DNA from: Actinocrinis puniceicyclus
Lineage (GTDB): Bacteria > Actinomycetota > Actinomycetes > Streptomycetales > Catenulisporaceae
Assembly (NCBI RefSeq): GCF_018283645.1
Contig: NZ_JAGSXH010000036.1
Span: forward strand, 1-51,822
Direction: 5' to 3'
DNA length: 51,822 bases
How positions within the stretch are numbered: position 1 is the first letter of the stretch; each line of letters starts with the position of its first letter. The notes below the pieces were generated by a model that saw only the letters and a list, made by a program, of their open reading frames with translations, ran no database searches and was not told the origin of the DNA. The translations under genes and the position numbers were made by a program. Positions 51,127 through 51,822 of this stretch are shown here, one piece after another.

Positions 51127-51393
51127 TCAGCGGGAGCGCTGTGAGTGGCTCGCCTTGAGCGCGCCGAGCGCGACCAGCAGGAGCAGCGTCAGCGCGTTCG
51201 CCGCGATCACCGCGGGAGCCGCGGCCAGGAAGCCGTAGACCAGCCAGGTGCCGACCCCGGTGCCGAACATCGCGAACCACTCCCACGCGAAGTCCTTGGT
51301 CGAGCGGGTGCGGAACGCCTTCACCACCTGCGGCAGCCAGGCCAGCGTGGTCAGCGTCCCGGCGACCAGGCCGATCACCGTCGCGGTGGTCAT
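51127..51393 (-). CDS. SemiSWEET family sugar transporter
   Basis: This 88-residue protein has three transmembrane helices and the PQ-loop motif WLPQVVKAFRTRSTKDF, a typical bacterial SemiSWEET half-transporter that works as a homodimer. The second helix has GTWLVYGF. It moves mono- or disaccharides down their gradient. The ATG at 51393 is preceded by GGGGGAGGGGACTG. It is divergent from the truncated regulator, with an inverted repeat between them. Confidence 0.9.
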   Translation of the reverse strand: MTTATVIGLVAGTLTTLAWLPQVVKAFRTRSTKDFAWEWFAMFGTGVGTWLVYGFLAAAPAVIAANALTLLLLVALGALKASHSQRSR

Positions 51394-51446
51394 CAGTCCC
51401 CTCCCCCTTCCGCGTCCGCCCGGCTCGCCGGCCATCGGGGCCGGAT

Positions 51447-51467
51447 TTTGTGCAGACGCTGTACAAA
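51447..51467. promoter_or_regulatory. 21-bp inverted repeat between SemiSWEET and the regulator
   Basis: Arms TTTGTGCAG and CTGTACAAA surround a three-base centre; all but one position per arm pair. It lies 54 bases before the SemiSWEET start and 15 before the regulator start. The position and AT-rich arms fit an operator for the divergently encoded regulator. Confidence 0.75.
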
Positions 51468-51481
51468 TACATAATCATGGA

Positions 51482-51738
51482 ATGACCCCGGTTCTGTCCA
51501 CCGCGGCGCCTGGTCCGCCGGGCAACGATTCGGCGAACAACGCCACCCGGCTGCTCACCGCGCTGCACCGGCGCGGCGGGGCGGCCACGCGCGCCGAGCT
51601 GACCGCCGACCTCGACTGCGGCCGTTCCGCGGCCGGCTACGCCCTCGCGGACCTTGTCGAGCGCGGCCTGGTCACAGTGGACGAGCATCCGCAGCATCCG
51701 TCGCAGCACCCCGCGAACGCCGCGTCGGCCGCCACCGC
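51482..51738 (+). CDS. N-terminal part of a winged-helix (ROK/MarR-like) regulator, truncated by adapter
   Basis: The 85 readable residues contain a helix-turn-helix: ATRLLTALHRRGGAATRAEL, CGRSAAGYALADLVERGLV. This is the winged-helix N-terminus found in ROK-family sugar regulators and in MarR-like proteins. The genomic sequence ends at 51738 where adapter begins, so the rest of the protein and the family are unknown. The ATG at 51482 is used. An inverted repeat just upstream and the divergent SemiSWEET gene suggest a sugar-responsive regulator. Confidence 0.6.
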
Positions 51739-51822
51739 CTGTCTCTTATACAAATCTGACGCTGCCGCCGACGGAGAGAGTGTAGACCCTGGTGGTGACG
51801 GACAACTTAAAAAAAAAAAAAA
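51739..51822. other. Sequencing adapter (Nextera/Tn5 mosaic end, index, P5, poly-A), not genomic
   Basis: The end reads as the Tn5 mosaic end CTGTCTCTTATACAAATCT (51739-51757, one mismatch). Then come the Nextera read-through linker (51758-51771, one mismatch), an 8-base index CGGAGAGA (51772-51779), the P5-side sequence (51780-51808, with errors) and 14 A residues (51809-51822). The order and lengths match library read-through exactly. It should be trimmed from the contig. Confidence 0.97.

Follow-up and report, generated by a model that had tools for sequence, protein, structure and literature searches.

An untrimmed Nextera i5-side adapter tail at the end of a draft Actinocrinis puniceicyclus contig

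The last 84 bases of the window (the whole stretch of DNA analysed here, 51,822 bases, which is the entire contig C299 of a draft assembly of 6,765,010 bases in 430 contigs) are almost certainly untrimmed Nextera i5-side adapter read-through, that is, an ordinary assembly artefact. We see no biology in these bases, and no biologically new reading of them remains. What was observed directly is the match to the adapter, its position at the end of the contig, the recurrence of the index at a second contig end and, elsewhere in the assembly, a sequence that fits as the continuation of the gene. The original prediction, that the bases are adapter read-through rather than genome and that the contig is a draft with an untrimmed end, holds on the points that the sequence comparisons cover: the tail matches the adapter string carrying the S511 index at 57 of 70 positions without gaps and then runs into 14 A, and the artefact recurs at further contig ends of the 430-contig assembly.

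The reference string was composed of the mosaic end and S5 linker, whose letters are given in PMC6460022, and of P5 and the S511-A index, as printed in PMC7589761. Alignment to this string confirmed the predicted order and lengths of mosaic end, linker, index, P5 and poly-A (Table 1). The 13 mismatches among the 70 letters fall at string positions 15, 30, 49, 51, 52, 59, 60, 62 and 64–68 and are thus crowded towards the end of the tail, with 11 of the last 22 ungapped positions of the P5 part mismatched. By section, the reverse-complement P5 agrees at 13 of its first 16 bases and at 5 of its last 13 (ungapped), and these last 13 bases, taken alone, are not convincing. The expected full-length adapter match was consequently found in order and length, but not in identity. 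The i7-side adapter, considered as the identity of the tail, was rejected for its poorer fit (39/76 letters, against 63/76 for the i5 side, trailing A counted in both).

Table 1. Layout of the terminal adapter tail and of the interrupted gene that precedes it.
Feature	Position in window	Strand	Observation
N-terminal ~85 residues of a ROK-family regulator (winged-helix part), genuine genome	51482..51738	+	Truncated by the contig end
Nextera (Tn5) mosaic end	51739..51757	+	18/19, 1 mismatch
S5-side linker, directly 3' of the mosaic end	51758..51771	+	13/14, 1 mismatch
8-base i5 index CGGAGAGA, reverse complement of TCTCTCCG (S511)	51772..51779	+	8/8
Reverse-complement P5, degraded	51780..51808	+	18/29 ungapped; right length (29)
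Poly-A after the adapter end	51809..51822	+	14/14 A; probably a read that overran the library molecule

The index had been named as the reverse complement of S511, and the S511-A letters printed in PMC7589761 bear this out: S511 agrees at 8/8 letters, and none of the other S5 indices listed there (15 compared) agrees with the index in the tail at more than 4/8. The index primers in PMC7589761 differ at their inner end, and the paper therefore supports the index and P5 letters, not the kit. A text search of the literature found the 33-base mosaic end plus linker in 33 papers; for A-tails after adapter read-through it found no usable description, as judged from the titles listed.

Within the window, the mosaic end (up to 3 mismatches) occurs once, and it occurred in none of 100 dinucleotide shuffles. 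When the 62 fixed adapter letters were scanned ungapped along both strands of the window, 49 matched at the tail versus 32 at the next best place, on a background with a mean of 15.7 and a standard deviation of 3.5. The poly-A is the sole run of at least 9 A or T in the window.

The tail lies at a contig end, and the same artefact recurs at further ends of the assembly. All ten places that resemble the mosaic end (up to 3 mismatches, whole assembly) lie no more than 130 bases from a contig end, and such 130-base zones at all contig ends make up 1.65% of the assembly. Eight of the ten have at most one mismatch; between their outer edge and the contig end lie from 0 to 111 bases, and the bases preceding the mosaic end differ at each of these eight. 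The other two have three mismatches each (C136, 33–51; C8, 36–54). Apart from C299, the mosaic end thus stands near nine contig ends, at seven of them with no more than one mismatch and at the other two with three. Beyond the mosaic end, C422 shows the linker, an index read as CGGATAGA and a degraded P5, the linker and index with errors; this index agrees with S511 at 7/8 letters and with the 15 other S5 indices compared at no more than 4/8. C115 terminates in the linker and CGGA, the first four bases of the S511-derived index, and C388 in GA. C160 has one extra base and C62 none, C8 shows the beginning of the S5 linker in degraded form, C136 has most of the i7-side linker, and C148 continues with CCGC, whose first three bases, CCG, agree with the i7-side linker. 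Strict searches of the whole assembly (3 mismatches) returned no linker-N8-P5 composite and no i7 linker-N8-P7 composite. The absence of the former and the mismatches in the last 22 P5 positions count against the read-through reading; the strict search missed even the window's own copy, because its P5 is too degraded.

At the end of C403 (L007:1–111), the mosaic end is followed outwards by an A-run and then by about 100 foreign-looking bases. Klebsiella phages have an HNH endonuclease gene that this piece resembles (91% identity over 101 bases to phage KpF5), and 12 of 5426 E. coli genomes contain a place that it matches at 80–90% identity. It is probably the end of a foreign or chimeric read rather than a gene that belongs to this GC-rich genome. 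That the assembly also contains cross-sample fragments, as the C403 end suggests, is a tentative proposal that we hold to be somewhat improbable; if it does, short foreign pieces at contig ends could pass for gene transfer.

The tail is best explained by sequencing that crossed the whole insert of a short Nextera fragment, went on into the S5/i5 adapter and P5, and then ran off the end of the molecule, giving A calls. The adapter was left untrimmed, and the assembler retained this end of the read as the final 84 bases of C299. The source was probably one or a few read-2 reads. The mismatches may reflect poor base quality, and the A calls may stem from cycles without signal, both of which draw in part on general sequencing lore.

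Public contigs carry the same artefact. A scan for the first 28 adapter letters gave hits in at least 119 contig stretches (L034–L152) from public draft genomes and metagenome-assembled genomes. Of the 127 matches among the 119 stretches listed, 121 lie no more than 50 bases, and 126 no more than 200 bases, from the end of the stretch, the farthest lying 471 bases from it. Among the matches listed, the 28 that come from stretches of 8000 bases lie without exception on the minus strand, and the 24 stretches that start inside a contig have plus-strand matches only; given this strand pattern and the listed ranges, each stretch stops, on its matched side, where its contig stops. Of the sufficiently long tails among these matches, 58/64 show the linker, eight bases and GTGTAG, and five tails reach the end of P5. 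In L101 and L125, from unrelated genomes, the complete P5 is followed near the contig end mainly by A, with some C interspersed; in L142 it is followed by ATAAAAAA and then other bases, L061 stops after one A past P5, and L133 stops at the P5 end. In L049 and L110, a more garbled adapter tail is followed by G runs instead of A. Such runs after an adapter are expected of two-colour instruments.

Closer to home, the mosaic end (up to 2 mismatches) occurs in 6 of 14 genomes of the family, the Actinocrinis one included, which is the only genome that a search at the genus level covers. In the five relatives concerned (G001, G002, G005, G006 and G007) there are 32 minus-strand and 27 plus-strand matches; on the minus strand, all 32 start no more than 63 bases into a contig and lie in its first 81. 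Untrimmed adapters seem to be common in drafts of this family. Compared with plasmids, the 84 bases gave one partial match (L162:601–648), 48 bases that are 85% identical to the start of the adapter tail. This stretch overlaps the end of a hypothetical protein in a plasmid record that is called complete, and it is possibly an adapter left in a finished record.

The start of the ROK gene that runs into the tail was chosen from the match to the relative G001, whose 414-residue protein matches Pfam ROK with an E value of 8.6e-47; residues 1–70 of the window protein are 76% identical to its start. The window's 85 residues alone match seven Pfam families, mostly helix-turn-helix, all under the curated cut-offs. 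An open reading frame (51248–51820) stays open up to the window end, as it would if the final gene ran on through the tail as genuine coding sequence. However, residues encoded past 51738 do not align with the G001 protein, and a fitting continuation is located on C132, for which reasons we rejected coding past this point and give it scarcely any credence; annotation of the gene beyond 51738 is wrong, as had been predicted. In the search of the assembly, C132:4370–5320 on the minus strand is the best of 11 matches to the G001 protein (residues 91–402, 64% identical), the remaining 10 being C299 itself and weaker ROK relatives. C132 is 5324 bases long, the ROK remainder starts 4 bases from its end and the frame enters from the contig end. 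No exact shared stretch of more than 12 bases was found between window positions 51601–51738 and 2455 bases of C132, and a gap therefore separates the two parts; going by the linker in the relatives, it would span a few tens of bases. From these alignments, one ROK gene is likely split across C299 and C132, although the C132 part may belong to a different ROK gene. The same stretch of C132 (L153) also has a reading frame that we take, from its motif, to be biotin synthase-like.

A natural Tn5/IS50-like transposon end was also weighed, given that the mosaic end is derived from IS50 ends. Against it, what comes after the mosaic end is the S5 linker, an index from the published list and then P5, after which the contig stops; the other nine mosaic-end-like places of the assembly are also near contig ends; and a search of 20,395 E. 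coli records (ecoli_genomes) with the 84 bases gave no hit at E 1e-5. Nor was the mosaic end found (up to 2 mismatches) in the one-contig relatives G003 and G004; six drafts (G008–G013) are equally without it among the 8 of 14 family genomes that lack it, and the absence from G003 and G004 is therefore weak evidence. On the adapter order, the contig-end placing and the missing database match, we rejected a transposon end as wholly implausible. An adapter from another library, arriving by index hopping or cross-contamination, fares a little better and is still quite unlikely: the C403 end, with its prophage-HNH-like enterobacterial bases beside a mosaic end and A-run, means that the assembly holds at least one foreign-looking fragment, but the same index returns on C422 (7/8), and C115 shows the first four bases of it.

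The consequence of adapter read-through is a matter of curation: the tail gives the truncated ROK regulator a false C-terminus and needs to be trimmed. Where such tails stand, annotated gene termini, joins between contigs and seeming transposon ends are untrustworthy, and this concerns the nine other contig ends of the assembly as well as the public contig stretches counted above.

Among known systems, the adapters at public contig ends share with the tail the mosaic end, linker, eight bases and GTGTAG at a contig end, and differ in that CGGAGAGA is absent from the 12 eight-base words among the matches listed. Compared with i5-side read-through of Nextera or Nextera XT libraries, the tail departs at the 13 positions given above, 11 of them in the last 22. 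It agrees in the trailing A and in the way the mosaic end, the linker, the 8-base index and the reverse-complement P5 follow one another, each at its expected length.
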